Source: Sipunculus nudus
Taxonomy: Eukaryota > Annelida > Sipuncula > Golfingiida > Sipunculidae
DNA length: 64,000 bases
Reading direction: 5' to 3'
NCBI GenBank assembly: GCA_026874595.1
Contig: CM049322.1
Location: 51,189,340-51,253,339 of the forward strand
Made by a program: the position numbers and the translations under genes. The notes beneath the pieces are model-generated. The model had not been told where the DNA came from. It saw nothing but the letters and a program-made list of their open reading frames with translations, and made no database searches. Shown here piece by piece: positions 13,299 through 57,749 of this stretch (position 1 is its first letter; every line of letters starts with the position of its first letter).

Positions 13299-13334
<36 letters not shown>

Positions 13335-33535: not shown

Positions 33536-33686
33536 TCAATAATATGTGCAGTTACAAGAACGATGCTTCCATTTAGATGAGATATGGGTACTCTTGATAG
33601 ATCCTGCTGGGTCTTCATCCAGCACCAGAAAAATGTTGTAGAAACTTGACGGAAACTTGGGTCTATGGTGCAGATTCTTCTGAAGA
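33536..33686 (-). CDS. Duplicated alternative 3' exon of the MAP2K-like gene
   Basis: Acceptor CCTTCAG is followed by T and LQKNLHHRPKFPSSF, then DEDPAGSIKS, a diverged copy of the 35526-35727 exon with the same phase-1 start. Read from the C-lobe exon it gives CLQKN... and ends at a stop at 33536. Read in phase 0 from the 35526 donor it gives only SSEESAP and a stop. It may be a mutually exclusive last exon or a decaying tandem exon copy. Confidence 0.55.
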
Positions 33687-36600
33687 CTGAAGGAAAAACA
33701 AATGAATGTTATATCAAAATGCAGAGTGTTGTATATAACTAGGGACCCATGGGTCTCGACGCTCAGCTGCATTGATCTGTAAGGATATATGTTTATGAGG
33801 TTTTCCAAAATATTGGTCCTGTGATCAGTTTGAAGCCAACCTGTCTACCCAAACTGGAGTTATTATCCATAAACTAATTTGTGAATGGATGGGCCCTGTG
33901 ACCTTAACCTTTGGCCTTATGACCCCAAAATCAAAAGGAAACTTCCCCTATTGGCAGGTGCACCACATGTTGATGATGAAAGGATTGAGAAGTAAAATTT
34001 GGCTTAAAATGCATCCACAATCTTTCTAAAGTAGTTTGTCCTGTGACCTTGACCTTTGATCTCATGCCCCCTAGAATCAACAGTTCTTACTTTAGTGGTG
34101 GGCATACATAAGTCAAGTTTGAAACCAATATGTCAAACTAATCTGGAGTTATCATCTGGAAACTAATTTGTGAACAGATAGCCCCTGTGACCTTGACCTT
34201 TGACCATGTGACCCCAAATTAATTTATGCTCTCCCCATAATGATAAGTCAGCTAAATGTGCAAAATGGAAAGTTTGATAGATGAAAAGCTTGGCTTAAAA
34301 TGCAACCATAATCTTTTTATAAAAGTGAGTCCTGTGACCTTGACCTTTGACCTCATGACCCCAAAATCATATAGGTTCTTGTGGTGGGCCATATGTAAGT
34401 CAAGTTTGAAAACCATGTGTCAATACAACCTGGAGTTATCATCTGGAAACAAATTAGTGTGGATGGACAGACAGACAGACAAGCAGATAGACAGACAGGG
34501 TGATAACTATATGGCATCCACTTGTGATCAATAAACACACCAGGTTTTGGGACACTAGATGTAATTACAGCTGAGAAACTGACATGATTGTTGTCATTTT
34601 ATAGTGAAAAAATTTTTTAAATATTTGTTAAAATAACAAAAAATACAGGTGGCGCCACCACTTTTTGGGAACTGACAAAACTAGTCATGGTCAATATTCA
34701 AGGCAAGATTCATGAAAATCCATGCATTTATTATCAAGATATTGGAGGTTTTGTATTATATTTTTTATTATTCTAGTGGGTACCTTCAAGCCCCATAGCT
34801 TGAAGGATATAGGTCGCAGTGACCTAATTTCAGGTTTCAAAGGAGATTTTTTATTAACTCCCTGGATGTTCACTTAAAAGATTCTAGGTCCAGCAGTTAG
34901 GATTTTTGCCTTGCTAACGGACGGCCGGACGGACGACGGACAAAGCGCCATTCCTATACCTCAGTTGACTTAAAGTCAGCTGAGCTAAAAATGCAAAGCG
35001 GTGTGATCCTCTCTGACTGTTCTAGAGTGCCTGTACATCGTTGGTTGCATTGATATCATGTGTAGTTATTTAATACTATGGATTGCTGGGCCTTAGGCTT
35101 ATATTGCCCTGGCCTTAGGCTGATATGCAAACCCTCAGGCGAATATTAATGCAATATAGGCAACACGGAACATTCTGGCTGATAACAAAGAAATATAAAA
35201 GAAATTAAAGACAAATTGTTTGGATATAACAAAACATTTATGGTATGACCATATAACAAATGACCAATGGGTCACTTGGTGAAAAGATTGGCCTGTAACG
35301 TTATTACACATGACCAAATTTATAATTGACGGACAAAGCGCCATTCCTATACCTCAGTTGACTTACAGTCAGCTGAGCTAAAAATGCATAGCGGTGTGAG
35401 CTGATGCTGTCACATAAATGATTTATTACATAAGGAAAAATGTCAAAATTTATGTGTAAAGCAGTGTCTGGATTGGCCTCATGCAGTTATTTAAGATAAG
35501 ATTCGTTTCAGTCACATTGACTAACCTTGCCTGAGACACTAGTAGAGGACACCTCTCCTCTTTCCAAGTCTGAAGATGTTTCCGTTGGAATGGTAGAGTC
35601 TTCTCCGGAAGAGGATCCCATGACACTCTTAACAAATCCTGCCACATCTACATCTTTGTACAGCTGCAGAAACTGGTGTTGAAGTAACTGCTGGAGGTCT
35701 GGTCTATTTTGCCTGTTTTTCTGTAAACTGTAGGAAACATTGAAAAACAGAGACACATTACCATAGTAATTGACTTTGGTCAATAAAAAGATCGAATTCT
35801 TGTCTCTGTATCAAGGTACAGCAGGTATAATCATGAGTAAGTTCTTTTTTTGGTTTTGGAAGAAAACAAGTGACCCATGGGTGATGACGCTCAGCTGACT
35901 AGGAAGACATTCACAAAAGGACTTTTATCATCTGAATGCCAAATTTTGTAGGTGGTATTCCCATTCAAGCGAAGCATAGCTGGGAGGATACGGATAACAG
36001 AGACCAACTTTCGGGTTTTCAAAGAGATTTTTCATGGGCCTCTCTGGATGTCAAGTTAGAAGATTCTAGGGGCAATGGTTACTATTTGTGTCCTGTTAAC
36101 GGACGACCGCATCTTTGGTAAAAAAAACAGAGAAAAAATGCGCAAAAAATTGAAAAAAATTCAGATGGCGACACCAGTCGGCAATAACTGATGAAAAACT
36201 ACCTGATGAATATGCTTGCAAAGAACCATAGTGATCAATGCATTGTTTGTTCAGATACTGGAGCTTTTGTAACAAATTTTTAATTATTTTGGGAGTTCTT
36301 CTGAGCCATATAGCTCGGAGGATATGGGTAACAGAGACTTAATTCCAAGTTTTTAAGGTGATTTTTTTACCTCCCTAAATGTCAAATTAGAAGATTCTAG
36401 GTCCAATGGTTACAATTTGAGCCCTGTTAAATGACAACCACATCTCTGAAATGAAAACAACCAAAATTGGAAAAAATACAGTTGGCGCCACCAGTTTGCA
36501 GGAACTGATGAAACTTCTTGATCAATATGCATGCAAAATATTATGGTGGTTACTGCAAAAGTTATTTAGATACTGGAGCTTTTGTATAAAGTTTTTAATT

Positions 36601-36937
36601 ATTCTCGGAGGTACGGGTAACAGAGACCAAATTTCAGGTTTCCTAGGAGATTTCATGGACCTCCCTAGATGTCAAGTTAAAAGATTCTAGGTCTAGCAGT
36701 AATGATTTTTGCCAGATTAACGAATGGACAGATGGACAGACACTGGACAAAGAGTGATCGCCTAAGCTCAGATGACTTGAAGTCAACTGAGCTAAAAAAA
36801 CTGTCCACCATGAGGCTATACATGACTTGTTGCACACATAATTTTACATTTACGATAAAGAGTCAATTGTTTGACTCAAAATAATCACATATTTTAAGAG
36901 AAAAGAGTATAAATAGAAGGGAAATTTGAATCAAATA

Positions 36938-36994
<57 letters not shown>

Positions 36995-37715
36995 GAGTTA
37001 CCCTCCATTGTAAAGTGCTCTATGGCCTACAGACTAGGCCAGAGCGATATATCTCTGAAGAAAAACAACACTGTAAATTCACAACAGTCTGTTTCACGGA
37101 ATGCGACCCGATCATCAGGTGAATGTGGTTAGAATGAAGCTAACGATGTGGTTTGAAAAGCCGAGACTTTACGAGATTACGAGATTATGCTTTGTGCGAT
37201 AGGGGGGGGGGCATGTGAAAGACTAACACTGATCCTATTGTCGTCAGGGGCAAAATAGGATAGGTCGGGGTATTATACATAAATATATTTATTGTGTATT
37301 TTCATAGTATATGTGTATTTATATCATATGTATACTACTGATACTTTCACTGCTTCCAGGACCCTATTGCAAATCATTTTAATATGCTAATTGAGCATCC
37401 TGGCAATATATCTTTGTATTATATATTAACATTAAAACAACAACAAACCTCTTTCCCCTGTTATGTTCCAGTATTGCACGTGTACCCCGACCAATCCTAT
37501 TGTGCCCCCGAGGACAATAGGATCAGTGTCAGTCTTTCACATGCCACCCTCCCCCCCCCCCCCGAGTCGCACAAAGCATAATCTCGTTATCTCTCGTAAA
37601 GTCTCGGCTTTTCAAACCACGTCGTTAGCTTCATTCTAACCACTTTCACCTGATGATTGGGTCGCATCCCGTGAGACAGACTGTTGTGAATTTACAGTGT
37701 TGTTTTTCTTAAAAG

Positions 37716-37773
<58 letters not shown>

Positions 37774-40700
37774 TATTCAAATGATAATTGTCAGTTCTTT
37801 TTTTCTGTTCTTCGAGATGAAGTTAGATGAAAGAAAGAGTAAGGTATGCATGTTTCATCCAAGAGCTTACGTTAAATTGATCATGCAGTCGTTTGCAACA
37901 TATAATATGCGACAACACTGCAGTATAACCTAAAGAAGCTGAGTAGCTTGGGAGGCGTGCCATATTGTCTGAATAATTTTTATCTAAACATATATCTGCC
38001 TGGTGCATGATTAGCTATCTCATGAATGGATCTCACTTTTGGTTTTGGCCTTAAAATATAAAAAATGCCATACAGGTATCATTCCCCTCATACAATTTGA
38101 CTCAAATCCATCATGCATTCAGTCTTTTTATTTTGTCAATTATGTTTTCCTGGACCCTGGCATAATTGATGCACAATGAGGTGTTTTAATTTTAACACTC
38201 AACTCATCTCCTTTATCCTGGTCTTGGGAAGGATATCCACAAAAAATGAACTTTCAGGTGTGTAGGACAGAAAGGGAGAGGGAGATTTTAAAATAGTGTG
38301 AAGTGCAGTACTAATTTATTGACAGAGTTTGCATAAAAATAATCTCACCATACGGCAACAAAATCCTGAAATTTGGAGGAAAACCCCTCAGCTGGAAGTC
38401 TAGGAGGTTCTGCTTGGTGTATTTGTTTTTGTAGTTCACGCAGACATGAGCATGCTGGGTATGGAAACTTGCCTGTTGCTACCTCGACCTATAACCAATA
38501 TGAAAGATGCCACACTATGTAAGAACAGGATCAATTATTTCAACACAATATTTAAACACATCAATCTTTTTTAAATATCTGATCTTAAATCAGAATGGAA
38601 TTGTTTGATTCTTTTTATTTTAATCTAACCTTTTATCTCCTTTTCATTTGGTTCAAACTCATAAGAGAAGATAGTTCCCTTATGGTTGTTTTAGATATTT
38701 TATTGATACTGAATATGCACATATAAATCACATAATACAAGCATCAGTGGGATTAAGTGCAAGCTACTTAAAGCTTACCTCGACTCTCTCCCGAATGTTT
38801 CCATTAACAGTATACGATGGCAGTATTCAGAGTGTTTGGATGTGAGTGAGTTTAGGTGAGGTAGGGTGGTATGGATGTTGGGTAAGTGAAGGCAAGTTGT
38901 AAATTTTCTTAGTAAGAATGGAAGAAATTGTTCATTTGTTCTTTTTTTATTTAATTTAATTAATTATTTGGAAGACAAGTATTTAAAATTGTTTTTGTTT
39001 CATTTTTGTTTAAGGTCCTAGTATATTAGGACTAATTTTATGACTGAATTATGAATATCACTTTTAGGGGAAAAATATGTAGGGGAATATTATATTTTGA
39101 ACCTTTTTGTGTCTTCTATGTATGAAGATACTGCTTCAAAAATTTCTTCATTTCTGATGTGGCTTGCATAGGGATTTCCATAAAGAAGTTCTTCTACAGG
39201 TATATTTAGGGGGAGATGTTTACTTCTAGAGTTGACATGGAGGTGACACTGCAGTAGGTAATGTTCTGCGTTTTCTGTTTCGAATCCACATTGGCATTTG
39301 GAATCGTTTAATAAGTGTCTTCTATATAAATCATGGTTTAGATTACTGCACTGTGTTCTTAGCCGTGTGTGAATTAGCTGGGCTCTTCTTGATCCTGAAT
39401 TATAATATTTAGGTGGTTTGTTTTTAGCAATTTCTCTTGATATATTATTTTTTAGCAATTTACTGGTCTGGCAGTGTTTAAGTCTATTATCTAGTTTGTT
39501 CCATAGTCGTATAGATTTTGGTAGGAATGAGTTGTAGTACAGCTCTGTTCTAGAGAAAATGTTTTGTATATTGAGTAGAGCACTTGACCTTGTATTAAAG
39601 GTATAGTTTCTTGGTGGAGGTAATAGAAGGTAAAGGTACTTTGGAGTTTCTTGTTTTAACATTTTGTGTAGTTGGATGACCACAGAGTTTTCCCTACGTT
39701 TTTTTAATTGGGGCCAGCCTGTTTCTTTGTATAGTTTGGCATGGCTAGTTCCTCTGACACAGCCTGTCACAATCCTGGCAGCTTGTAGCTGCACTGCCTC
39801 CAATGTATCACTTTGCTCTTGTGTGCAGTTACACCACACAACATTGCTATATTCCAATATTGGCCTTATATAAGTGAAGTGTATGTTTTCAAGAGTTTTC
39901 CTATCAAGCATATATTTCAGTTTGCTTAGTATTAATACTTTAGAGTTTGCTTTGGCTTTTATATTTTCTATGTGATCATTCCATTTACAGTCCTTTCTGA
40001 ATGTTAATCCTAGATGTTTGTGACTGTTAAATTTATCTATTTTAATGCCATTTAAATATAGGTCTGGGTGAGAAGTTTTAGATGATTTAGATGAAAATAT
40101 TAAGGATTTGGTTTTCTTTGCGTTAAAAGTGACTAACCATTTTGTGGACCATTTAAATATTTTATCCAAGTCATTGTTTAATATTTTTTCTGCCAATGAT
40201 GGATTTTCTATGGTGAGATATAACATAGTATCATCAGCAAATAACCTAATATTGCTCACTATGTTTTCTGTGATGTCGTTGATGAATATTAAAAATAATA
40301 GGGGTCCCAGTATGGACCCTTGAGGTACTCCTGCATGAAGTGATCCCCAATTAGAAAGTTCATTTTCAATTATTACTCTTTGTTTCCTATTTTTTAAATA
40401 CTGTGCTAACCACCGAAGTAATTTTCCTTTAATTCCAACTGATGACAATTTGGTGAGGAGGCCTTCAGACCAGACCTTGTCAAAAGCTTTACTCATATCT
40501 AGGAATACAGCCTGCACTTCCTTGCCTTTATCAACGTCTTGGCAGATTGAATTGTATAGGTCAGACAGTTGGTATACTGTCGAGTCTCCTGGGATAAAGC
40601 CAGACTGATATGGGCTTATTATGTTATTCTCTTTTAAAAAGTTGTACATTTGGGCAAAGATTATTTTTTCAAAAAGTTTGCAAATACAGGATGTCAGTGA

Positions 40701-43700
40701 TATAGGTCTGTAATTAATTGGCATACTTTTTTCTCCATTTTTATAGATTGGTGATACGTTGGCCTTTTTCCATAGTGAGGGAAGTTGCCCTTTTTCCATT
40801 GACAAGTTAAAAAATTTCCGTAGTGGATAAACCAGTTCTTTGTGGCATTCCCGAAGGACGATTGGGGGCACTTCATCAGAGCCTTGGGACTTGTTACAGT
40901 TTAGACCTATCATTATTGATTCTAGTTCATTAATATCAATAATGATGTTGTCAAGTCTATTTCTATTTTTACTAGCTAGGAATGGTGTGGATGAATTGTT
41001 TTCTTGAATTATTGTTTGTTTAATAAATTGTTCATTTAATAAATTTGCCTTATCCTTTGACTCTGTTGCAAATGTTCCATCTTTATTGATAAGTGGAGGT
41101 AAGAGTTGTTGGTTATTACCCTTCATTAAGATATTTACAGCGTGACCTGTCTGGCTTTCTGTTTGCTCAAAATCAAGTTTTTTGCTCATAGCTTACAGAA
41201 TATGGGTTACCTAACTTTAGGAATCAACGGTTGCTTGCACAGAACCTCTATGGATGTCATATAAGAAGGTTTAGGTCCATCAGTTAAGTCTTGTGCCCTG
41301 CCGGACTGTCTGGGCCCTCATAATCATACTTTTGACCAATTTTTTGCAGAATACAGGTCACACTAACCTAAGTTCAGGTTCCAAGTAGATTTATAAAGAG
41401 CCTCCTTGGATATTGTGTTATAGGATTCTAGGCCTAACGGTAATAATTTGTGAACTGTCTTACTGTATGGCTGCTCAAAATCATTTTTGACCAGTCACTC
41501 ACAGAATATAGGTCATCATGACCTATTTCCAAGAAAAATTTCCCAAGACTTCCATGGACATTACATTAGAAGATTCTAGGGCTACCGGATACATCTTTTG
41601 TGGACCTTATTGTCTCGGTGCTCAAAACAATGTTTTTGGCCACTCACTCAAAAAATGTAGATCATCGTGACCTAGATTCAGTTAAGAAAAAAAAATGCCC
41701 AGAACCTCATTGCGAGGTTGCGTTTGAAGAATCTAGGCCTAAAAGATACAATTCGATCCCATCTGACTTTCAGGTGGTCTAAAAATTATGATTTTACCTA
41801 TAGCTCGCAGAATAAAGGTCACTCTGACCTAATAACAGGATATTTATCAGGGCTTCCCTGAATGTCACATAAGCAGATTCTAGGCTCAATTGATATACTT
41901 TGTGTTCCGTCTGACTCAAAATCATGTTTTCCAGTAGTAGCTCGCAGAATATAGGTCACCATGACCTAATATCAGCTTTCTGAGACTTGCCTAGGACCTC
42001 GGGGATGTACGGTCAGACGATTCTTGGTCTAATGGTTAAGGCTTTTGTCCTGTCAACATTCATTTGAAGGTCTCAAATAGAGAAAATGCGTAGAAATTAG
42101 AAAAAAAATGTGGTGCCACCTCAAGAACTGATGAAACACTCCATCATCAATATGCAGGAAAAGAATCGATCATGACAATCAATGCATTTAGTTATTCAGA
42201 CACTGGAGTTTTTGTATAAATTTTGAATTATTCCTGGGGGTAATTACAATTCCCATAGCTCAAAGGATATAGGTCGCAGTGAGATTTATTTGTAGACCTC
42301 CAAAGGTGAAGTTTCTAGGTCCAGCGGTTACCATTTTTATACTATTAAGGGGCAACAGGATGTACAGCCGGGCAAAGAGTGACCACAATAGCTGAGATGA
42401 CTTTCAGCCGGCTGACTTAATAAGCAGATTAATTGTTATTACCCCTGTATTTGTGCATATACCTACACACATAAAAATACTTGCACAAACACATCCACAT
42501 TCTGCCGAACATTTGCCATACGCATAGACCCACGACTTTATTGCAAGAAGGCGGTATAATTAACACAGTGACCTACTTTTTTTGTTAGGAGTTTTCTACT
42601 ACCCATCGCAAAATATACTGTGATATGATTGGAAAATATTACCAGTATTCCTACTGTGACCATTTCTGATTTTTTTTTAAATAATGACTTCTATGGAAGG
42701 CCAAAAAGGCTGTGATGCACATGTCAGTAAGCTATTTTTCATAGACCTTTTCATAAGTTTTCATATTACCTCAAGTGCAGCCGTATTCTCACTGTCAAAG
42801 AGGCTTAATAAAATGAAACATGTCACAGAATCATTATTAGGATTTAATAAGTAACTAAGTTAATAATGCCTACACCAGTGCACACATGGAGGGTTGACAC
42901 TGACTTGAAAAAGAGTTGTTCTCGACCCGTCATGAATATTGTTCAGGGCATCAGTTTTCATGTGTATAAATGTGAATGGCTGGTTATACAAACAAACCCC
43001 TGAAAATTACAATATTGTTTGAAAAAATAATCTGCTTACCCAAAAGATGATTCTCTGCCAAAGTGCTATATATAAGGTTATGCATAAACATTTATGCTGA
43101 CTGAACATTTATTATATGCAAATATCGTAGCAGGCCACAGATGGAAATTTCATTTATCATTTAAATGTAGAATTTTGTTTATGAATGCTCACCATCAATA
43201 TTCCAAGTGACCACACAGATGACTTTGTATCATACCATCGATAAAATTCAATTTCTTCTGGCTGAAAATACGATATTTCAGATATTATTTTTAACGATGT
43301 AGTATATGTAGTTTTGTCAGTGCTGATTCTAGAATCTGAAGGCATGAATGCACAAATGGGTATTGCACAGACTTCTTTATACAAAGAACATATTTCTTAA
43401 ATGGTATTCCAATGTTTTTACATATACTATCGTATCAGAATTACAGGTGAATATGTACGTCTACATGCTTTACAGATATAAGTATAGACACTGTATCCAT
43501 CACTGCTGGTGTTCCCAAACCTTATTTTACATTCACCAAAACCCTTCATCCAATCTGTGTTACTTAATTTATGTTTCTTGAATTCAAAATTGCATAAGCT
43601 GAATTTTTTTATTTTATAACAAGGCCTACAGGTCTAATGCGAACCTGTGCAATGGTTTATACACCAGGTATAATGCTTCAGTGCTTGGCCATTACTTTTC

Positions 43701-46700
43701 AAGTAGGCTTACATGTCTTGTATACAACAAAGGTATCAGAGATGTATACATATGCCAAATTTCAGGTTGATATCCCCTTCTGAGAAATAAGCATGGACAT
43801 ACACTGTGCAAAAATTATTTAGGTGGTGCCACCAGTCTTGTTTACGATAAAGCTTTACAATATGTATAAATTTGTCCAATTTCAGGCTGATATATCAAAT
43901 TCCTCTGGAGAAATAAGCAGGCACAAACACTGTTCAAAAGTCATTGTAGGTGGCGACACCTGTCTTGTGAACGAGAAAACCATCAAAGATGCATAGACAG
44001 GTGAAAATATCAGGCCAATACATCAAATATTTCAAGTTTGATGCACTGGGCTGACCAGGTTTAGGTGAGAAAGGCAGTTGCCTCGAGTGAACTGTGACAA
44101 ATTTCTGGCTCAAGCTGCTGCACTGAGTGAACTCTTGACCTGCACCTGGTTAGACTGAATGATATTTTGACCTCTACCTGGCTGCACTGAGTGAACTCTT
44201 GACCTGTTGCATAATCTGACACAGTTGGCAGTCTGTCAAAGCTATAAATAGAATCCAGCTAGTGCACTGAGTGAACTCTTGACCTGTTGCCTAATCTGAT
44301 ACAGTTGCCAGTCTGCAAAAGCTATAAATAGATCCAGGCTGACCTTTGGCCTGTTGCAAAATCTGAAATAGTTGGTAGTCTGTCAAGCTATTTAATCTGA
44401 AATCTAGTGGCATGATGTTATAGATGCTGATAAACTGGTGCCAGGCTAGATGTAACTGCTTCACACAGCTTACAAATATGGTTAAATGATTCAATTCAGT
44501 CTCCATAATTCAGCCAAAAATCATTCATGTGGAACCATTAAAGACAATTATTATAAGAATTTTTGTGGGGATTATTCTTGTAAAATATTAAACAAATTGG
44601 CTTCAGTGGCATCAGTCGAAAAATGTTTTGCTGGTTTATCACTCAAATAGGAAGATACAGCGAACTGGCTAAGTTCAGCTTCCCGTAACTCAGCCAAAAA
44701 GCACTGAACCAAAACCATTTGAACAAACTTGAATTATCAAAATCTAAGGATAATTAATGTGTGAGATTTAAGAATCTGGCCCGTTGGTTTTTGAGAAGAA
44801 GTTCTTTGTAGACACTGAGCTAAAATGGGCTGTTATTGCATATGACTCAATTCAACTACTCATAACTCAGCTAAAAGACACTAAACAGAGACCATTTGAA
44901 AAAACTTCAGAAAGCACTACCCTAGGATCATTTCTGTGTGATGTTAAACAATTTGGCCAATTGGTTTCAGAGAAGAAGTTCTTCGTAGAACTCAGTATGA
45001 TACAGGCACTGATGACCCCCGTACAAAAAAAGCGGATGCAGGTTGCGCCACCAATACCTCAGTTTCAGATATGACTCATGTGACCAACATTGGCATAAAA
45101 TTAGGTGATGATAGCTCCAGCCTTTCTGAGATTGAAATTTTAGTATGCTTTTCTTGACAGATGACTAAGTTGAACTTCCTGTAACTCTGCTAAAAAGCAT
45201 CAAACTGGAACCATCCGTACAAACTTGAGAGAGATGGTATAAGAGATTATTTCTGTGAAGTATTGAACAATTTGGCTGGACCGTATTGGAGGAGAAGATA
45301 TAGTTTTTCAGATGGCTAATTTTTGGCATAAAATTTTATGATGCTAGCCCCTTTTTCGAGAAAGTATGGGTTAACGTACAGACAACGGATGACGAACGCC
45401 GAACAACGCCACACCATCGCATTAGCTCACAGGTTCGCTAAAAATGTCACAATCAATGGATCAACATGCTTTAATGGGGAATCTCTGACTTTTCATTGTC
45501 TTTTAATCATTAATAAAATAGGGGTGGTTTTAACCACACATTGCCAAATTTAGGAATTGTCCTGTTCCCCATACGATTTGCCCTGTTATTCTTACAGCCA
45601 TGTATGTTTTGGCTCCATCCATCATGGCCTTGGTATTATAAGCCACCGAGAAAGGGCTGCCCCATAGGTGACTTATTTTGACCTCTCCACTATCATTGAT
45701 GAGTATTTTTGAAGGTTTCAGGTTCCTAGGGTCATGGTCTGCCTGAGTTCGGAGATAAAGCAACCCTTTGACAACCTGAAACAAACATCAGATGTGAAAT
45801 GATGATATATAAACACAATGCAGAGTTACAGCTGAGTACTATAAAATTAATCATGTGTGAGCATTGCACACTTTAATGACTCCATGTCATTTGACCACAA
45901 GATTCAGAAGAACTAACAGCCTGCAAAATATAAATGATGGTTTATAGCTCAGCTGACCATAGGTCATCTGAGCGAGAGCTACCAGCCTTTGTTCCTCGCA
46001 TGCCTGTCCTTCCATCTGTTAAAAGGGCTCAAATCTTAATCACTTGACCTAGCAATGTTTTATATAATATCTAAGTGGCTCATGGTAGACTTACTTGCAT
46101 AGAAAATATGTGGTCATTTCTACCTATATTATGTGAGTTAAAAGAGTTTTTCTGATTTTAACTCTCAAATAATCTAACTTGTGTGATTACTTTGGGCGGT
46201 AAAGCAAACTTTGCACTAAGCAGAAATTGAGACATTTTACATTATTTGCATATATTATATTGTTACCATGTAAAAAAATGAAATTCTTTACATTCAAAAA
46301 ATATGTGCTTTACCTTTAATGCTGCTATTGGAAGACAGTGCATAATGTATAAGCCTCATTCATATTGAAAATCTAAAAAAAATCTGTAAATGGTTTCTTG
46401 ACAGCTGCTGCGGACACATTTAAAAAATACATATGTGGCATCTGATTTACACCTAAAATTCATATTTAAAAAAAAATATCTTGTGGTTGCTTGGTAAGTT
46501 TTGAAATGTGGTAAGCTTGATCATCATAGATAGCCCTTTCAGCTGTGAAGGACAGGTGGTGCCATCTACATCTCAATTTTTATGCTTTTTTTGTAATTAT
46601 TATGCTCGAGAATAACAACTTGCCCATTATTAACAAGGCTCATATCAAAACCGTTTGAACTACACAGCATTGTTGTCCTGTAAGACATAAAGGAAATCGG

Positions 46701-48375
46701 CCAAGCCAGTGCTTCAGAACTGTCACAAATACATCACACAATATTAACTTTAATGTTGTTGTATGAAATGTGTACTTTAGATAAAAATGCATTGATCTAT
46801 GGTAAATGAATACTGATCATGGATAGACATTTCAGCTGTGTTGTCGCCTTCTGCATTTTCTTTAATTTTACAAATTTGGCTGCACAAGGTCTCAAATGCG
46901 GGAAGTCTAGGCAGCAAGCAATATTGGGGATGGAGTATCTGAGTCTGCTCAGCCGACTTTGTCCGCTGCCAGGACGCATCCTAATGAATGCAGAAGAGAA
47001 TACATCACCATATACAAATGGGCACCTATCAGCAGAACAGGCTATAATACGAATATAGTACGAATCCTTATGCCATTTTAAGGAAGTACTCGTTTATACT
47101 TATTGTGTACTCTAGAAAGTACTCATGAGTACAAGCAAAGAAAAGCTGACCGACATCTAGTCCTAGAATGAAATGTAATTCAAAGTGATTTAATTAATGT
47201 TCACAATGGGCTCAAATTTACAACATAGGATGAATTGGAATTATTAAAAAAAAATTAAACCTTCATGAATAAAGAGGCTTCTATGATTGAAGAAAAATAT
47301 TTTATCTGAATAATCTTCCAATGATGAGCAAGATTTTCTACTGGTTCAATGTTACCTTAGCTCCTTATAAAACTGGTAGGATTTGTGCCCATTTAAAACA
47401 ATTCAGATGATGATGTATATACCCTTCCAAGATTACTGTATGACAAGATTAGTTAAACAATTTAAAATCACAACTTTCAGCCTTGTGAATAATAGCCCAC
47501 CACAGTATTCGTTGAAAGTAAGGTTAATAAATTGAAATATGATATACTTACTGCAAATGCAACCTTTCCTATAACTTTCTCTGGTATTGTCTGGCCATTT
47601 TCCTGAACTTTCTTGTAAAGTCTATCCAAGGAAGTGTCCATAACCTCCATGCATACCCAAATATCCTTCTGTAAAAAATAAATATGTATCCTTGATTACT
47701 GTCTATGCCAAGAGGGGATATGTGTTCATCCCGATTGGTGCAAATGCTTACAAGTATGAATCTTCTTTAACAACATATCGCACGCAATCATGAATGCATT
47801 TTCATGATATTTTCAAGGCACTTTAGCAATTGGCCAAATGATTAGATTTTGGTGTTGATCTGGCACGATTCAAGAACATCATCAAAGAATATTCACAAAT
47901 GAAAGGTTACTTCTGCAGAAATGGACCCAGGAATATGGACTGAAACTGTGAATGCATGTAGAGTTTTGGGAGCATCCCACAATAGGGACCCACACATGGC
48001 GGAGACTTGCATTCCTTAGAATGCAGTTTTCCAGGATATGACCTATACCCCTTAGGGAGAGCTTGGAGATTGTGTGTTGGAAACTCAGCCGAGGTGGTGA
48101 GACTTTTCACCCAACAATGGTGAGCACCCTATATGCTTAATGAGGATACAGTGCCCAATGGCCGTGTTTCACTCCGAACAGGTGCACCTTACGGGGGTTC
48201 CTTGGTGGTATTACCTAGCAATGGGGGTGATTACACACCCAGGAGCAGCAGGTTCAGTAGTCACTGGGCCTGCATGTGACGGGGCAGGGTCTAATAACCA
48301 CCCAGGTATGTAAATTCTATAGATGTACATATATACTTAGTCAAGCCAGCATTTAAAAAATAGAGGCAGTTAACT

Positions 48376-48436
<61 letters not shown>

Positions 48437-51230
48437 TGAAACCTCGTTGTGTCGAACTCGTTAAAGTTGAAATCCCGCATGTGTCGAAGGCTGACTCTAA
48501 TTTACCATAGAGTACGTTATACTGTATTACTGCTTCATTTTTATATTGTTTGTGTCCTGTTTGCTATGGCATCGCGGCCTGCTTAGTGTAAGCTCGATGT
48601 AAAGACCATATAACCTCATTCAATCTGTGTCTTTCTCTCTATCTCTCTCTCTCTCCACACACACTATTTTTCTGTTTCAGTTTGAAATTTTATCACGCTA
48701 AAAGAAATTGTCTCAACAAAATAAAAGAATAAAAAGAAATGGTAATAACAAGTGACCCGTGGGTCATGACGCTCAGCCGACTGACATGTTGACAATATGT
48801 CCTTGCACAGGAAACTAATTAAGATAATATAGGTGGCGTCATCATTCATGCATATTAGCTAAAGTTCATCAAGACCCATTAGAAAACCGAATTGGATGAC
48901 AATCCAACCAGCCTTTCCTGAGGTACCTGGCAATTTGTGTGTATCTTTCATTACTTCTGGGATGCTCAAACATACCCCAAAACTCTGGGAATATAGGTCA
49001 CATTTACCCAATTTCAGGTTTTGAGGGAAGAACTTTTAAGGAAGTCTCAGGATGCCAAGTGAGAAGATTCTTGGTCCAATCGTTATGATTTGTGCCCTAC
49101 TTTGGTATCAAATTTTCAAATATTCTGGGGTGTGCTTATAAACCCCACTGATCATAGAATATGGAACAGAAACCTAATTTCATGTTTCCAAGGAGACTTT
49201 TCATGGACCTCCCTGGATTTTAAGTTAGAAGATTCTAGGTCCAGTGGTTATAATTTGTGCCCTGCCTTGGTAACAAATTTTCAATTAAGTTAGGGGTGCT
49301 TATAAGCCCCAAAGCTAAGAGAATATGGGTAACAGAGAGTTTCAGGTTTCCAAGGATATTTTTTATTGACCTCCCTGACCTGTTAACAGACCAACGCATC
49401 TTTAAAGGTCTCAAAAATAGAGAGAAAATGCATAGAATATGGGAAAAAAATCCAGGTGGCGGCACCAGTCTGCAAGAACTGAAAACACTCCATGATGAAT
49501 ATGCATGCAAAGAATCATGGCAATTCTTGCACAATTTGTTGAGATACTAGAGCATTTGTATCAAATTTTAAGTTATTCTTGGGGGGTCTATAGAGCCCAA
49601 CAGCTCAGAGCATATTGGTAACAGTGACCTATTTTCAGGTTTCAAAGGAGATATTTTTATTGACCTCCCAGCATATCAAGATAGAAGATTCTAGGTCCAA
49701 TTGTTACTTTTTGCGCCCTGTTAACAGATTGCTGCATCTTTTAAAGTCTCAAAAATAGAGAAAAAAATCATAAAAAAAATAAAAAATAAAATACACAAGT
49801 CAGCAGGAATTGATTAAACACTCCATGATGAATTTTCATGCAGAGAATCATGGCAATCAGTGAACCATTTGTTGAGATACTAAAACTTTTGTATCAACGT
49901 TTTAGTTGATCTTGAGGGTACTTCAAAGCACTATAGCTCGAAGAAAATGGGTAACAGAGACCTGATTCCAGGTTTCAAAGAAGACTTTTAATCGGCCTCC
50001 CTGCATGTCAAGACAGAAGTTTCTGGGTCCAGTGGTTACGTTATGTGCCCTGTAAACATATGACCACATCTTTTAAGGTCTCAAAAATTGAGAAAAAAAT
50101 TGAAAAAAATCGACAGAAATAAGGTGGCGCCACCTGTCTGCAAAAACTGATCAATCACTCCATGATCAATATCCATGCAAAGAATCATGGTGAACAATAC
50201 AATAGTTGTTCAGATACTTGAGCCTTTGTATCAATTTTTCCAATTTATCAAAGTTACGAGAGAAGATCCTAGGTCAAGTCCTTAGGATTTCTGCCCTGTT
50301 AATAGATGACCACATCTTAAGGTCTCAAAAACAGAGAAAAAAAATTGTAAAAATCGAAAAGTCTACAGAAAGTGATAAAACATTCAATGACCAATATGCA
50401 TGCAAAAAATCATGGTTATCAATGCATTAGTTTCTCAGATACTTGAGCTTTTGATTTAAATTTACCATTATTCTGGGGGGTACTTTGGAGCCCCATAGCT
50501 CAAGGAATATGGGTGACAGAGACTTAATTTTTGGTTTCCTAGAAGACTTTTTATAGGCCTCCCTGCATATTAAGAGAGAAGATTCTAGGTCCAGTTGTTA
50601 TCATTTGAACCCTGTTAACACATGACCGCATATTATAAGGTCTTAAAAATATAGAAAAAAATCGTAAAAAATAAAAAAATACAGGTGGCGCCACCAGTCT
50701 GCAGAAACTAATAAAACAGTCAATGATCAATATATGTGCAAAGAATCATGGTGATCAATGTATTAGTTGTTCAGATACTTGAGCTTTTGTATCAAATTTT
50801 CCATTATTCTGGGGGGTACTTCGGAACCCCATAGCTTAAAGACTATAGGTAACAGAGACCTAATTCCAGTTTTTTAAGGAGAATTTTCATTAACCTCCCT
50901 GGATGTCAAGTAAGAAGATCTCAGGTCCAGCGGTTACGATTTGTGCCTTGTTAATGGACAGACGGCTGGACAGCCGGATGGCCGGACATACGAGGGACAA
51001 AGGGTGATCGCTATAGCTCAGATGACTTAAATTTAGCTGACCTAAATATTCTAAAGGATTCACAAAAACATTTGTGTGAACTATATGATACAGGCTCTAT
51101 ACATGTGCAGTATTTATCGATAATAATAACGGCTGAAGGAGGTTGAATATAACAATCACGGTTGTCTCGAACTCCGGTTGTGTCGAAGTAAATTCACCCG
51201 TCCCTTCGACTTCGACCCAACGAGGTTTCA

Positions 51231-51277
<47 letters not shown>

Positions 51278-53939
51278 CACACAATATAAATATATATATA
51301 TATATATATATAATGTTAATAATTGCAAATTAAAACATGTTTTTAATATATATGCTTATTGAAAAAGTTCACACAGTGACATTACTTTTACTTTTAGTAT
51401 ACAGTAGGGACCCATAATTGTATGATATCCACATAGCAATATACTATGATACAGCAATCCTCATATTGCGTATTTAGATAGCATTTTCATATGTATTTTT
51501 ATTTATATTTGTCTGAAAAAATACTGAAACTGATGACACTAATTTATTATAATAAAATAAAATTGTTTTCAGATGTCTCAAGGATAGATAGAGTAGTGCC
51601 AAAAATATATAATGACTACAGTTTCTTTTTAGGTATACATAAACAATACTTTCCTGTTTGTAAAAGGCTCCATAGCCCTGCACAGTGTATGGGCTTGAGA
51701 TGTCCCTCAGTTTTCCATCTAGCACCTGCAAACGGTGTGCCGTTAACTTTGTGAAGTTTGGAACTGGTACCCTCTGTCAAAAGAAATTGAGTCATAACAT
51801 ATATCAATGAGCATTATTTATCATGAGTGCTCTTTTCCTTTAATTCTTGTAATATGAGATAGGAAAATAACTGGAACCAGGAAGTACAGACAGGTGGCAG
51901 GGGGGGGGGGACCCAGGGGTTATGTAGGGTAAGGGGTTAAGGCAGTTAACGCACTGGGCTTCAGAGATGAAGTTCCCTCCGGTGAAAAAGTAAGGGAATT
52001 CAGCCACTGGACCAGAGGTCTGGCAGAATTTTTTTTTTATCTAGATCTACAAAATGTTTGCTGAACCAGTCATTTTCATGATTATAACTGCCTGAAATAA
52101 CATGAAAGAATATATGAGATACCATGTGGCATATGAAATATTTTCAGATGGACAGACAGGTGGACAGAATGGATTAATACTTTATTTCACTTTTTAGGGG
52201 AATAATGATTAAAAGTTTATATAAAACCCCATCTTTTAGCGTATCAATTTTTTTGCATAAATAGTTTGTATCATATTCATTTTTTTTAAATATACAATTT
52301 TATAAATTTGCAAAAAAAGTTTTGAAAATATAAGTTAATTCAGAATTGTAAGTTGCATCATTATTTAATCTTTGTTTGGCTCGTATCATGTCAAATTATA
52401 CATACATACACATATATTCTAGTGAGAAACTCTATTGGAAAATGTGTATAATGAGTTTCATGAAAATCCATTGGATTTTTGGTAAGTCACTAAGGTGCCT
52501 CCAAAGTGTGGTTACCTCTGACCGCATTAAATATGCATGAAATTTGCTGGAAATTGAACTGAGATATTTTATTGATTAACATTTCTGATGAGTTTTGTCA
52601 AAATCCTTCATATTCTTTGTAAGTAATCGCAGTAATGTTATGAAGTGGTAAATTTAAATATTGGTAATCAAACTAAAACTTGAGCGCATACAACCGCTGT
52701 TGTTACAGAGCTTTCACGTGACATATGAGACGTACATATCCATATTTCTGCATTTCGTCATAAAAGCTAAACCTTATCGGATGACTCAAAGTAGGTCACA
52801 ATTACATCAGAGGTGTAAGTGTTCTTCTTAACTTGTGTGAGATCTGATTAGACAAAAGTGCTATGGAAAGTCCCAAGTCTGACCTGACATGCATCCAGTT
52901 ATAGACTGAACTGCAATGCTATTTCCAAACTCTATAAACATAATCTGCCTGCCTCATCATAGAAACCAATTTAGAGCTAATTTTTGAGAGTACATTTAGG
53001 CTCTACAAACATACTGAGTTACCATTAGATACTTGGTCGTCTGATGAACATTAATTTCCTTTGGCTCTGTCTGAATATCCGTGCTCATCAATCTCTGACA
53101 CTGATCTTAGTGTTTGTCCCCCTGTGAATTATAAGTTTTAGTTTGATTACCAATATTTAAATTTACCACTTATATGTCAGCGCTGCAAGACTGCAGCATA
53201 TGACTTAGATGGCAACTCATGTAACTACCAGTAGTTTCAAGTTAACCCACCAGGCGGCGATATCGGCGGGCCGAAAAGGGACACGCAGCTGCACGGAAGT
53301 TGGAAGAAAACTTTATAAAAAATAACTACCTATTATCAGATAACTTTTATTTGTATAATACGTATTAAATATAGGAGAGAAAAGGCGCGTTAAATTACAT
53401 ACGACCGGAAATGGTCCTATCTTCCGTGCCCTCGATCGGACCCTGTTTTGTATGTGTGCATGGTCACCCATCCAAAAACTAACCTGGGTCGTTTTAGCTC
53501 AACTATGATGACAGTTCCGACTGTGACCCAGTTATTCCAACGCGTATGCCTACCTGTATTTTGTAATTATTGCTAAATACCCCACGTGAACTGCACACGA
53601 GCCACGTGCATACCAGGAACGGTACACGAGTTTGCTTCGTCACGGACACCCATTTGGAACTTAAACGCTTTATCATGTTTATATATTAATAATTGAAAAC
53701 GTATCTTTGAATCTTCAAAATTTTTTTAATGCAAACAAGTTTGATGTGGATGCTCAGTGTAATAAGAATCTAGTCGGATACAAACTGCGGCGCCCGCGAG
53801 AGACGGAGGCATTTCACCTAAACATCGTCGACAGAAAACATCGTCGGCAGTCGCGAAATTAGAGTCATTTCAGAAATTATTTGCACATGTATTAGAACAA
53901 AAGATTCTAGGTCCAGCGGTTACGTTTTGTGCCTGGTTA

Positions 53940-53970
<31 letters not shown>

Positions 53971-54409
53971 GCTAGACGGAGAGACGGACAAAGAGTGATC
54001 ACTATAGCCTAGATGAATTCCAGTCAGCTGAGCTGAAAAATTGGATGTTCTACACAAGAGATTAAATATTGCCTAATTACAAAATTGATTCCTCCTTAAA
54101 CTGCACATTTCCGTGCATGATGTCATGCAAGATCATGCATTTTCTCCTGTCATCAATGTTTATATTTTCATTATAATGCTATCTGCATTCTCATCTGAAA
54201 GAGACATTTACAGACTACCCACATCATGAAATTAACCATACATCACCTTGACAGCCATGTAGGATTTACTCTGAGAGTGAAGCATCTTATAAACAACTGT
54301 GCAGCTCCCTCTGCCAAGGTCTTCGATATGGATAAAATGTGATGGTTCTACATAAAAACAATGGCCACCAACTATGATCATGGCCTTGTGTTCATGCCCT
54401 GAAACGGAC
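33536..54409 (-). CDS. MAP2K (MKK3/6-type) pseudokinase gene, 5' end not seen
   Basis: Exons 54409-54247, 51773-51645, 47668-47552, 45775-45596, 43261-43193, 38488-38349 and 35727-35526 join in one frame to 333 residues, followed by an alternative or extra 3' exon at 33686-33536. The order and motifs follow a MAP kinase kinase: Gly-rich loop LGRGSCTVV, MAVK lysine, hinge VCMEVMDTSLDRLY, catalytic loop, activation segment ending APE, helix F and a C-terminal DVAGFVK segment typical of MKK3/6. Normal members phosphorylate p38-type MAPKs. Here HRD reads PRN, the catalytic-loop Asn is Lys, DFG reads HLW and the helix-F Asp is Ser, while the ATP lysine and APE remain. All frames are open and splice sites intact, so this looks like a retained pseudokinase with a scaffolding or regulatory role rather than a dead gene. 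N-terminal docking-site exons are missing, probably upstream of 54409. Confidence 0.85.
33830..34560 (+). repeat. ~145-bp tandem repeat with TGACCTTGACCTTTGACC core
   Basis: The core recurs near 33900, 34042, 34185 and 34333, spacing 142-147 bases, each followed by a CCCCAAAAT-like block and a GGAGTTATCATCTGGAAAC block. The array ends in GACAGACAGACA and a GGTGATAACTATATGG tail. Related units occur at 60400-60780 and 61510-61890. Confidence 0.8.
34920..35400 (+). repeat. Two near-identical cassette tails with hairpin
   Basis: About 70 bases starting GGACAAAGCGCCATTCC occur at about 34938 and 35332. Each holds a near-perfect hairpin (CTCAGTTGACTT / AAGTCAGCTGAG) directly followed by CTAAAAA. 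Confidence 0.75.
35526..35727 (-). CDS. MAP2K-like exon: C-terminal segment and tail
   Basis: Completes Cys (TG+T), then LQKNRQNRPDLQQLLQHQFL and DVDVAGFVKSVM, the MKK3/6 C-terminus. A Ser/Thr/Glu-rich tail follows to donor GTTAGT (phase 0), implying at least one further 3' exon. Confidence 0.85.
35868..36795 (+). repeat. Cassette-family element with 2-3 internal units
   Basis: Begins GTGACCCATGGGTGATGACG, contains repeated modules (GATTCTAGG-CCAATGGTTAC-ATTTG and TGGCGCCACCAG-type), and ends with a GGACAGACACTGGAC tail and the CTCAGATGACTT hairpin followed by CTAAAAA. Confidence 0.65.
36941..37771. mobile_element. Foldback element embedded in TA microsatellites
   Basis: TA runs at 36941-36989 and 37717-37771 flank a large inverted repeat. 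Arms at 37058-37272 and 37483-37711 match as inverted complements (for example AAGAAAAACAACACTGTAAA at both outer ends and CGGGGTA at both inner ends), with a ~210-base loop. No coding capacity. It lies in a MAP2K-like intron. Confidence 0.8.
38349..38488 (-). CDS. MAP2K-like exon: C-lobe
   Basis: 46 codons plus two bases (TG), acceptor GTTATAG, donor GTGAGA. VEVATGKFPYP and RLPAEGFSSKFQDFV match the MKK C-lobe. Confidence 0.85.
38500..39089 (-). other. 3' flank/UTR region of the Jockey-like element
   Basis: Sequence 3' (minus sense) of the retrotransposon stop codon. The exact 3' end of the element and any target duplication could not be fixed by eye. Confidence 0.35.
39090..41189 (-). mobile_element. 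5'-truncated Jockey/CR1-like non-LTR retrotransposon with intact RT frame
   Basis: A 699-codon frame without interruption encodes a non-LTR reverse transcriptase. Visible blocks: NYRPISL at 159-165, FLDMSKAFD at 229-237 (first catalytic Asp), GVPQGSILGPLL at 287-298 and FADD at 317-320 (catalytic Asp pair). A Cys/His cluster follows at 632-648 (CQCGF...EHYLLQC), as in many Jockey-group proteins of molluscs. An AP-endonuclease domain would be expected upstream but is absent: the frame opens within the linker that normally follows it. Its ATG comes from the host repeat, because CATAGCTTACAGAATAT matches the neighbouring 150-bp units. This is the usual result of incomplete target-primed reverse transcription. 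The open frame suggests a young insertion. It sits in a MAP2K-like intron in the same orientation. Clade assignment is by motif style only. Confidence 0.9.
41190..42420 (+). repeat. ~150-bp tandem repeat array with cassette tail
   Basis: CGCAGAATATAGGTCAC-like starts recur near 41199, 41347, 41502, 41650, 41801 and 41947 (spacing about 146-155), each followed by a GGATGTCA...AGAAGATTCTAGG block. From 42060 the sequence changes to the ~330-bp cassette type and ends near 42400 with GCTGAGATGACTT. Related units appear at 63590-64000. Confidence 0.75.
43193..43261 (-). CDS. MAP2K-like exon: APE and helix F
   Basis: 23 codons, phase 0, donor GTGAGC. PEEIEFYRWYDTKSSVWS completes APE with the previous exon. 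The conserved Asp before V/I-W-S is Ser. Confidence 0.86.
44050..44400 (+). repeat. ~95-bp direct repeats
   Basis: TGCACTGAGTGAACTCTTGA followed by CCTGTTGC and ...GCTATAAATAGA recurs at about 44110, 44180 and 44265, with a weaker fourth unit. Located in the intron between MAP2K-like exons. Confidence 0.65.
44490..45450 (+). repeat. Repeat modules with CAGCCAAAAA motif and ACGGATGACGAACGCC end
   Basis: Three to four modules of roughly 200 bases share AACTCAGC(C/T)AAAA, ACCATTTGAA(C/A)AAAC and TTTGAGAAGAAG. The last one ends in GACAACGGATGACGAACGCC and GCATTAGCTCACAGG. Short open frames here are not supported as genes. Confidence 0.55.
45596..45775 (-). CDS. MAP2K-like exon: degenerate catalytic and activation loops
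   Basis: 60 codons, phase 0, acceptor TTTCAG, donor GTAAGA. NLKPSKILIND sits where HRDxKPSNxLIN is expected, and VKISHLWGSP where VKxCDFGISG is expected. SVAYNT keeps Ser and Thr near the usual phosphorylation sites. Confidence 0.87.
47552..47668 (-). CDS. MAP2K-like exon: hinge
   Basis: 39 codons, phase 0, donor GTAAGT. KDIWVCMEVMDTSLDRLYKK is a close match to the MKK3/6 hinge (VWICMELMDTSLDKFYK in style). Confidence 0.87.
48070..48310 (+). repeat. Dispersed repeat, homologous to 28325-28570 in inverse orientation
   Basis: See the partner copy for the shared blocks. Ends just after GGTCTAATAACCACCCAGG. Confidence 0.5.
48379..48433. repeat. (TA)n microsatellite
   Basis: Directly abuts the CAGTGAAACCTCGTTGTGTC terminal sequence at 48434. 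Confidence 0.97.
48434..51233. mobile_element. Facing pogo/Tigger-like terminal inverted repeats in TA runs
   Basis: The left end CAGTGAAACCTCGTTGTGTC starts at 48434 directly after a TA run. The right end finishes ...GACCCAACGAGGTTTCACTG at 51233 directly before a TA run. They are near-perfect inverted complements and TA is the target of Tc1/mariner/pogo elements. The 2.8-kb interior has no transposase and consists mostly of cassette repeats, so this is either one composite element or two separate short elements. A third end-like copy lies at 10970. Confidence 0.5.
48750..51040 (+). repeat. Tandem array of ~330-bp cassettes
   Basis: Head GTGACCCGTGGGTCATGACG at about 48752. GGTCTCAAAAAT-type starts recur near 49408, 49748, 50079, 50321 and 50640 (spacing 242-340). 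Each unit runs through poly-A-rich sequence, GGTGGCGCCACC, CCATGATCAATATGCATGCA, TTCAGATACT, GCCCCATAGCTC, AGAGACCTAATTTCAGG, CTCCCTGGATGTCAAG and AGATTCTAGGTCCAG. The array ends in GGACAGACGGCTGGACAGCC and CTATAGCTCAGATGACTT. Confidence 0.82.
51234..51312. repeat. (TA)n microsatellites (51234-51273 and 51291-51312)
   Basis: Two TA runs separated by a short spacer, abutting the terminal repeat that ends at 51233. Confidence 0.95.
51645..51773 (-). CDS. MAP2K-like exon: helix C region
   Basis: Starts RVPVPNFTK directly after MAVK (phase 0) and runs through SSPYTVQGYGAFYKQ, matching the CPFTV-FYGALF segment of MKKs. The acceptor TTTGACAG is clear. The donor is weak: only GTTTAT after KQESI keeps the frame into the next exon, so the last few codons are uncertain. 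Confidence 0.75.
51925..52045 (+). repeat. Possible tRNA-derived SINE fragment
   Basis: GGGTTAAGGCAGTTAACGCA followed by CTGGGCTTCAGAGATG resembles a tRNA-type A-box region. No clear B box follows, so this is tentative. Confidence 0.25.
52050..54246. other. Intron of the MAP2K-like gene, no exon seen
   Basis: AT-rich except 53230-53850, which is richer in CpG (GGCGGCGATATCGGCGGGCC, GCGGCGCCCGCGAGAGACGG). It ends with a cassette tail (GACAGACAGACAGACAGACA at about 53941, hairpin-like CTAGATGAATTCCAGTCAGC). Confidence 0.4.
54247..54409 (-). CDS. MAP2K-like exon: Gly-rich loop and ATP lysine
   Basis: One base plus 54 codons, acceptor CTTTCAG, donor GTGATG. IEDLGRGSCTVVYKML ends at MAVK. The third loop glycine is Thr. 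Confidence 0.82.
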
Positions 54410-56689: not shown

Positions 56690-57200
56690 CACCAGCACCT
56701 TCAAGCAGCACCTCTGAACACCAGCTGGCACACCTCTGAACACCAGCTGGAAGCAGCTCCCTTTGACACTGGCTGGCATCAACTCTCTCTCTAAAATGGC
56801 TAGCAGCACCTCTCTGGACACTGGCAGGCAGCACCTCTCTGGACACCGGCTGGTTGCACCTCTCTAGACACTGGCTGGTAGCATTTCCATGGACACTGCT
56901 GGCAACACTTCTCTGGACACTGGCTGGCAGCACGTAAGGTCACCGGCTGGGAGCATCTCTTGACACCGGCATGCAGCATCTCCAGGCAGCACCACTGGAC
57001 ACCGGCTGACAAAACCTCTGAACACCAGCTGGAAACACCTCTCTGCAAAACTGACTGCTGGCATTATCTCTCTGGACACTGGTAACCAATACCTCTCTGG
57101 ACACACTCGCTGGCAGCTCCTCTCTGGACACAGGCTGGTAGCACCTCTCTGGACACACTGGCTGGCAGCACCTCAGGACCCCGGCTTACAGCACCTCTGA
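56690..57200. repeat. 25-bp minisatellite
   Basis: About 20 units of the type CAGCACCTCTCTGGACACTG plus GCTGG, with point changes and a few 24-base units. The minus-strand open frames read Ser-Arg-Glu-Val-Leu-Pro-Ala-like repeats. Since 25 is not a multiple of 3, the frame rotates, and different units are open in different frames, arguing against a real protein. Confidence 0.85.
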
Positions 57201-57749
57201 ACACCGATGGGCGGAATTTGTCGGTACGGGTGGCTGGCTGACTTCTCGACTCTGCAGGCGCCACAGACTGTGGGTCCACACTGAGTATGCTACTCTCCTT
57301 AAATACATGTTCATCTCTACCCTTGAGCCTTATTTTTATACATAAGTCTAATACAAATCCTCAGCCTGCTTTTTCTACTCTATATTCAAATACAAATGTA
57401 CTGCTCAACCCAAGAATGAATAGTTAAAAATGATTAAACTAACCGACACGATTCAAATTGTGACACACTTCCCCTTAAATAACCATATCACAAAGTAAAG
57501 TGTTTTCCAAACAATGTTGGTCTAACTCATACCTAATATACCTTTGAGTTGCAAATACCATAAATCTTGTTTTTATCGCCGCACGTCTATTTATAGCCGC
57601 ACCCTGAGTCTCCTTAGAGGAGCTCCCGTAAGGGTCCAGATACTGAAAACCCCCCTTAAATGCCGCACCCTGACTTTGTCCTTAATCTACTGCTCTTAAT
57701 CTAAGGCCTTACTCCCTTACAACTCAACAAAAAATCAGGACCATAATTT

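Follow-up and report, generated by a model that had tools for sequence, protein, structure and literature searches.

The 64 kb stretch of Sipunculus nudus DNA analysed here (C17:51189340-51253339, in a genome of 1.43 Gb; hereafter the window) carries on its minus strand, between positions 54409 and 33536, a diverged relative of MKK3 and MKK6 (MAP2K3/MAP2K6), the p38 activators among the mitogen-activated protein kinase (MAPK) kinases (MAP2Ks). An earlier note on this DNA had placed MKK3/6-type exons here and had read them as a pseudokinase of the p38-MAP2K branch; the exons were confirmed, in order and in frame on the minus strand, and we recognize seven of them (A to G1) plus a duplicate of the last one (G2). 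An intact MKK3/6 gene lies on contig C2 of the same genome, and the exon lengths of this paralog, in nucleotides (nt), are given in the following list for comparison.

Exon A, 54247..54409, minus strand: N-lobe with a phase-2 start; P-loop GRGSCT without the third Gly; MAVK lysine present; acceptor ttctttcag, donor AAG/gtgatg; 163 nt in both copies.
Exon B, 51654..51773, minus strand: alpha-C and beta-4, 40 codons; non-canonical donor CAG/GAAAGT; 120 nt in both copies.
Exon C, 47552..47668, minus strand: hinge MEVMDTSLDRLY through alpha-E; best residue retention among the seven exons; 117 nt in both copies.
Exon D, 45596..45775, minus strand: catalytic loop PRNLKPSK, HLW at DFG, activation segment lacking both phosphosites; 180 nt in both copies.
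Exon E, 43193..43261, minus strand: (A)PE through helix F, KSSVWSLG with Ser for Asp; 69 nt compared with 78 nt in the paralog, an in-frame deficit of 9 nt.
Exon F, 38349..38488, minus strand: alpha-G through alpha-H; donor TATG/gtgaga, phase 2, inside a Cys codon; 140 nt in both copies.
Exon G1, 35511..35727, minus strand: last exon with helix I and the C-terminal DVD region (DVDVAGFVKSVMG), a Ser/Thr-rich tail, then TGA; 217 nt compared with 151 nt in the paralog.
Exon G2, 33536..33686, minus strand: diverged duplicate of the last exon with the same phase-2 acceptor; 49 open codons.
Reverse-transcriptase open reading frame (ORF), 39093..41192, minus strand: resembles a long interspersed nuclear element, 700 amino acids, PF00078 E = 4.7e-33; within the E-F intron and outside the gene.

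Splicing of exons A to G1 yields a model of 335 amino acids in a single open frame, with 0 stops in 335 codons, and an AATAAA at 35427 starts 83 nt beyond the stop of exon G1. The alignable part of exon G1 is two codons shorter than that of the paralog, and the tails differ. The exon at 33686-33536 is a diverged duplicate of the last exon (81/129 bases identical between G1 and G2, alignment score 87 compared with a maximum of 62 in 300 shuffles); it is an alternative last exon, not one that follows on from G1. A good donor inside exon G1, just 5′ of the stop (35526/35525, minus strand, CAAG/gttagt, score 2.9), would when joined to G2 give a short SSEESAP end as an alternative C-terminus, read by eye. 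A tblastn match at 44820 (AQCLQRTSSQKPT, E 0.71) was considered as a third last exon, but it is without fitting splice sites, has repeat-like surroundings (by eye) and was taken as chance.

Compared with the structures in PDB, the spliced model scores highest against human MKK6 (3vn9, E = 3.9e-68, 233 bits), ahead of MKK4 and MKK7 (184 bits each) and MEK1 (175 bits), and Pfam recognizes the protein kinase domain PF00069 in it (E = 2.4e-37). We followed 17 catalytic or regulatory positions in human MKK6 numbering, picked from general knowledge, with the acidic residue of alpha-C outside the list. Ten of them are lost (G65 to T, H177 to P, D179 to N, N184 to K, D197 to H, F198 to L, G199 to W, S207 to Y, T211 to A and D239 to S), and seven are kept (G60, G62, K82, R178, K181, E223 and R302). 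S207 and T211 of human MKK6 are the activation-loop phosphosites. Where an active dual-specificity MAP2K has the HRD Asp, the catalytic Asn and the DFG Asp, the window copy has Asn, Lys and His, and the Ser/Thr pair of the activation loop is replaced by Tyr at S207 and Ala at T211. The changes reported in the earlier note (PRN for HRD, Lys for the catalytic-loop Asn, HLW for DFG and Ser for the helix-F Asp) are thus all present, and to them we add the loss of both activation-loop phosphosites and Thr at the third P-loop Gly; its statement that all catalytic signature residues had gone was too strong, since 7/17 remain, including K82 and E223. With catalytic residues lost and the frame open, the gene has the make-up of a pseudokinase. 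No relatives of the model were found among viral contigs, and tblastn of human MKK6 against the whole window found no second, intact MKK exon set at the locus.

A search for a separate, catalytic MKK3/6 in the same genome had been suggested as a check, and it found one on contig C2. The model gave 20 matches, headed by this locus and followed by C2:55.43 Mb (exon C 73% identical, E 2.2e-13), the remaining ones being other kinases at 1.4e-7 or weaker, including further C2 exons of the intact MKK3/6. The kinase part of that gene (C2:55425216-55435756) has IHRDVKPSN, CDFG, both phosphosites and APE; exons of other MAP2Ks lie at C2:63.05 Mb (MKK4) and C5:29.04-29.08 Mb (MKK7). All six introns of the C2 gene have the same position and phase as those of the window copy. 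With gapped columns excluded, the window copy is identical to the paralog at 153/310 positions (49%) and to human MKK6 at 123/301, compared with 202/306 between paralog and human MKK6, and 38 sites are common to window copy and paralog against human while 8 are common to window copy and human against the paralog. In a tree of six rows the two copies pair at 100/98, with terminal branches of 1.32 for the window copy and 0.0096 for the paralog, and the tree tool warned that the placement of so long a row is unsure. Bit scores, tree and introns agree in placing the window copy in the MKK3/6 subfamily by descent, which, with the same caution about the long branch, backs the assignment to the p38-MAP2K branch. 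Because an intact C2 paralog with the same introns exists, the window copy is, on sequence grounds, an old duplicate of MKK3/6 that arose at the DNA level, and it is not the sole MKK3/6 of the animal.

Twelve of the 13 splice sites are canonical (acceptors AG in 7/7, donors GT in 5/6). The earlier description of the splice sites as intact holds for these twelve and fails for exon B, whose donor CAG/GAAAGT has GA in place of GT, so that intact splice sites are not kept by every exon of the putative pseudokinase. Over the seven positions outside GT this donor scores 8.6, the top of ten sites scored. Skipping of exon B would link A to C without a change of frame and would take out alpha-C and beta-4. 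Since GT is missing at this donor, the present state of the gene is uncertain: its transcripts may nowadays leave out exon B, or decay of the gene may have set in.

Protein change has been concentrated in the window copy, which has 85 unique changes compared with 8 in the paralog when human MKK6 is the outgroup (chi2 63.8), 62 compared with 10 with the genome's MKK4 and 70 compared with 7 with human MKK4. Over 310 codons, NG86 gives a synonymous divergence (dS) of 1.55 and a non-synonymous divergence (dN) of 0.40, and indels relative to the paralog have in-frame lengths only. Reckoned under four settings from the paralog codons, neutral evolution at 1.06 substitutions per codon, the smallest divergence fitted by the codon model, would be expected to produce 8.6-10.8 stops, with a probability of none of 1.3e-5 to 1.4e-4; at 2.18 substitutions per codon up to 15.7 stops are expected and P(no stop) is 3.2e-6 or lower. 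The codon model covers the 246 codons also present in MKK4 (outgroup), exon G being absent. On the assumption of equal times, as paralogs within one genome should share their divergence time, omega (dN/dS) is 0.49 for the window copy and 0.049 for the paralog, and omega = 1 is rejected (twice the log-likelihood difference, 2dlnL, 12.0), the branch of the saturated MKK4 outgroup lying at its bound in the omega = 1 fit; the model with free times fits no better than the one with equal times (2dlnL 1.64). Among hydrophobic reference columns, 85/107 are still hydrophobic.

Constraint is unevenly spread along the gene. Among residues common to the paralog and human MKK6, the window copy keeps 20/35 in exon A, 11/29 in B (the lowest share of the seven), 23/30 in C, 21/46 in D, 11/15 in E, 15/26 in F and 14/19 in G, a difference among exons with chi2 15.3 (6 degrees of freedom, P 0.018). 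In a post hoc grouping, set after viewing the exon table, exons A, B and D keep 52/110 compared with 63/90 for C, E, F and G (P 0.0015), and equal-time omega is 0.69 in A+B+D (139 codons) compared with 0.30 in C+E+F (107 codons; 2dlnL 16.0, with the MKK4 branch again at its bound), while the intact paralog has the opposite order, with 0.002 in A+B+D and 0.107 in C+E+F. The N-lobe and active-site exons look relaxed in the window copy, and the stretches from hinge to alpha-E and from helix F to alpha-H, together with the DVD stretch, look held.

The timing of the losses can be bounded. Given a single damaged splice base and the absence of stops and frameshifts, a fully neutral phase can span at most about 0.035-0.063 substitutions per site (under a flat prior, with indel rates assumed at 0 to 0.1 per substitution). 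Between the two copies the 17 checked codons differ at 22/51 bases and at 10 residues, and such a neutral phase replaces 1.3-2.3 of the 17 residues on average; replacement of at least 10 occurred in 0/20,000 simulations at 0.063. Since the 10/17 losses exceed any allowed neutral phase, the loss of catalysis preceded whatever end coding selection may have had. Our case for a true pseudokinase stage rests chiefly on this timing, with which a gene that is possibly dying now would also agree. A nine-codon catalytic set (14/27 bases changed) was set aside in favor of the 17 positions because its choice among lost positions biased it.

With moderate confidence, we read the locus as an old MKK3/6-derived docking pseudokinase that would act as a decoy or scaffold and was possibly damaged recently. 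Several observations weigh against this. Exon B has a broken donor; the fallback 15 nt further on is in frame but weak, with a score of -5.5, under the median of -4.7 for 3590 GT sites on the same strand. Omega for the window copy is 1.0 when times are left free, and the outgroup saturation and post hoc grouping given above belong on the same side. Catalytic positions are kept at 7/17 compared with 75/124 for other invariant positions, no significant excess loss (P 0.19), and of the changed hydrophobic columns 25/47 stay hydrophobic, with 26.6 expected for a random missense step. Upstream of window exon A no N-terminal MAPK docking-motif exon was recognized, so short an exon being easily missed.

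It is possible, if unlikely, that the copy is recently dead, a long-expressed pseudokinase paralog in which exon B splicing and function have just been lost. Its exon B donor is one base off a strong site and looks like a fresh hit, and the fast protein evolution (85 compared with 8 unique changes), the omega of 1.0 without the equal-time assumption and the random look of the changed hydrophobic columns all point the same way. Against recent death stand the lack of any stop in 335 codons and of any out-of-frame length change, the 12 other intact splice sites and the frame that stays open when exon B is skipped; the GA donor, moreover, may be a single-base assembly error. Selection, which the earlier note had argued from open frames and splice sites, is borne out for most of the history of the gene by the open frame, the in-frame indels, 12/13 splice sites and the uneven exon constraint, and is not borne out for today, given the broken donor and the free-model omega.

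Another explanation involves the neighboring gene upstream. On the same strand and past the window edge lies a CARD exon (C17:51257811-51258134, PF00619 E 3.7e-10), and the next exon, exon X (862 nt in our own reading), ends in GAGGA/gtaagt, a phase-2 donor that fits the phase-2 start of exon A. Exon X, which by eye looks TIR-like, has no above-cut-off match in Pfam (weak chance matches), PADLOC or PDB (phmmer), and within its own genome matches itself and C8:61921413 (56%). We consider it possible, though rather unlikely, that an MKK3/6 fragment without its own first exons is spliced to the CARD gene; the product, a CARD - X domain - pseudokinase protein, would link CARD assemblies to the p38 module. 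The compatible phases speak for such a fusion, but would agree by chance in one case of three. AATAAA and ATTAAA are absent from the ~630 bases past exon X, no paralog-like docking-motif exon is recognized upstream of exon A, and the tail of the exon X relative on C8 was not found in the 11.6 kb between exon X and exon A (best E 0.59). Yet on C8 the X gene has a tail and a stop codon of its own, tblastn with the window copy and the intact MKK3/6 finds no MKK-like kinase in the 38 kb read downstream of it, and the 11.6 kb carry retroelement pieces, with one repeat seen by eye, where short exons could hide.

Tentatively, then, a partial MKK3/6 copy lacking the p38-docking exon may have been captured by a CARD immune gene, as an inactive module that would tether a MAP3K, or else the p38 module, to CARD assemblies. 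RIPK2-type proteins combine a CARD with a kinase. If the fusion holds, a CARD joined to a kinase fold would be the likeness to them, but the kinase part of the window gene is MKK3/6-derived and inactive, the CARD comes first, and the single transcript is only proposed; were it true, CARD - X - pseudo-MKK would be a new MAP2K-derived pseudokinase adaptor.

Some further features touch the CARD gene and the interval below it. The exon X relative (L035:237-1379, plus strand, equal to C8:61921236-61922378) has a tail with INLNLSDCQNVHIGTDN, which in our view resembles a RHIM core. Another CARD ORF (L030:2435-5104, minus strand, PF00619 E 6e-6) lies upstream of the first CARD exon at a distance of ~18-20 kb and is followed by two long ORFs without above-cut-off Pfam match; the ORFs around it, tried as copies of exon X or of the CARD exon, have no convincing similarity to either. 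Between the CARD-X gene and exon A are retroelement RNase H and integrase pieces (57762-57986 and 59406-59840, both minus strand, below Pfam cut-offs) and a GC-richer stretch with ORFs that repeat by eye (56600-57400).

That the copy has been a plain neutral pseudogene ever since duplication is very improbable, for the free-model omega of 1.0 is set against 8.6-15.7 stops expected at 1.06-2.18 substitutions per codon (P 1.4e-4 or lower), length changes that never break the frame, 12/13 splice sites kept and constraint that is uneven along the gene. We give almost no credence to a still-active kinase with unusual chemistry, of which WNK and Haspin are examples, as the beta-3 Lys, P-loop Gly 1 and 2 and the KPSN Lys are kept but the HRD Asp, the DFG Asp, the catalytic-loop Asn and both phosphosites are gone together.

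How an old docking pseudokinase could work is suggested by the regions it has kept. The MKK DVD region binds MAP3Ks (PMC12942867, PMC2100151). By sequence, the window copy has such a C-terminal MAP2K DVD region, with 12/22 residues identical to the paralog, compared with 12/22 between paralog and human MKK6. The docking-type motif of the paralog, KKLPKFVI, sits in a separate exon 2.1 kb upstream of its exon A. A splice-and-motif scan that detects this exon gave candidates at 1 acceptor within the 9.6 kb upstream of exon A of the window copy, and a looser scan gave 20 acceptors in 29 kb for the window copy and 11 in 25 kb for the paralog, rates at which the candidates are indistinguishable from background. 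RKLNKAVI near 58636, tried as a docking-motif exon, is without splice sites. The suggestion that the protein binds or sequesters p38 or an upstream MAP3K therefore divides: because no docking-motif exon was recognized, the p38 half has no direct support, and the DVD region, kept as well as between paralog and human, favors the MAP3K half.

By sequence, this MKK3/6 duplicate has lost the residues for phosphotransfer together with its own phosphorylation sites, and we propose that its frame, to judge from the statistics above, was kept under altered selection for most of the gene's life. The work of the protein would most likely be non-catalytic docking through the C-lobe and the C-terminal DVD region. 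The pseudo-MKK would probably bind an upstream MAP3K, less likely p38 or the intact MKK3/6, and the MAP3K could be occupied without a signal being passed on, or be held near a partner, which would amount to competition with the working kinase or to scaffolding of it.

Elsewhere in the window, a guanylate-binding-protein-like gene (24056-24292 and 12259-12600, both minus strand) matches PF02263 (E 1.7e-6) and, below the cut-off, GBP_C (E 0.0086). Its P-loop reads GSARTGRS, with Arg in place of the usual Lys, and the pseudokinase may therefore have another degenerate enzyme domain in its neighborhood. Two near-identical ORFs ~12.85 kb apart on the same strands (296-2058 and 13141-14905, by eye) point to a recent duplication or a mobile element. 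At 8326-8985 (plus strand) an acidic protein has IQ calmodulin-binding motifs (PF00612 E 2.1e-19, three stretches), and the ORFs at 4749-4973 and 5460-5726 are similar to it by eye.

Among known systems, MKK3 and MKK6 give the best sequence match, and the window copy has the introns of the genome's MKK3/6 and the DVD region, but it has lost the catalytic Asp, the Asn, DFG and both phosphosites, and its docking-motif exon is not recognized. KSR is a pseudokinase scaffold of the RAF-MEK-ERK cascade (see also PMC9068654). Like the window copy, it is a pseudokinase from a tier of the MAPK cascade thought to act by docking; it relates, however, to the MAP3K tier, whereas the window copy comes from the MAP2K tier and the p38 branch. 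Yeast Mlp1, a catalytically inactive MAPK paralog with a non-catalytic role (PMC9106771), is likewise an inactive member of a MAPK-cascade family, but from the MAPK tier, from a fungus and with a known role. No animal MAP2K-tier pseudokinase of the p38 branch is named in the titles or abstract openings among the matches listed from open-licence PMC papers, and in the main text of the oyster kinome paper, which names MEK3, MEK4, MEK5 and MEK7, the word "pseudokinase" is absent (PMC4883820). Pseudokinases of the MAPK cascade are known at the MAP3K-like (KSR) and MAPK (Mlp1) tiers. With an animal pseudokinase of the MAP2K tier and the p38 branch, one could study what is left for a MAP2K to do once catalysis is gone, a question that opens because constraint seems to have shifted here from the active site toward the C-lobe.

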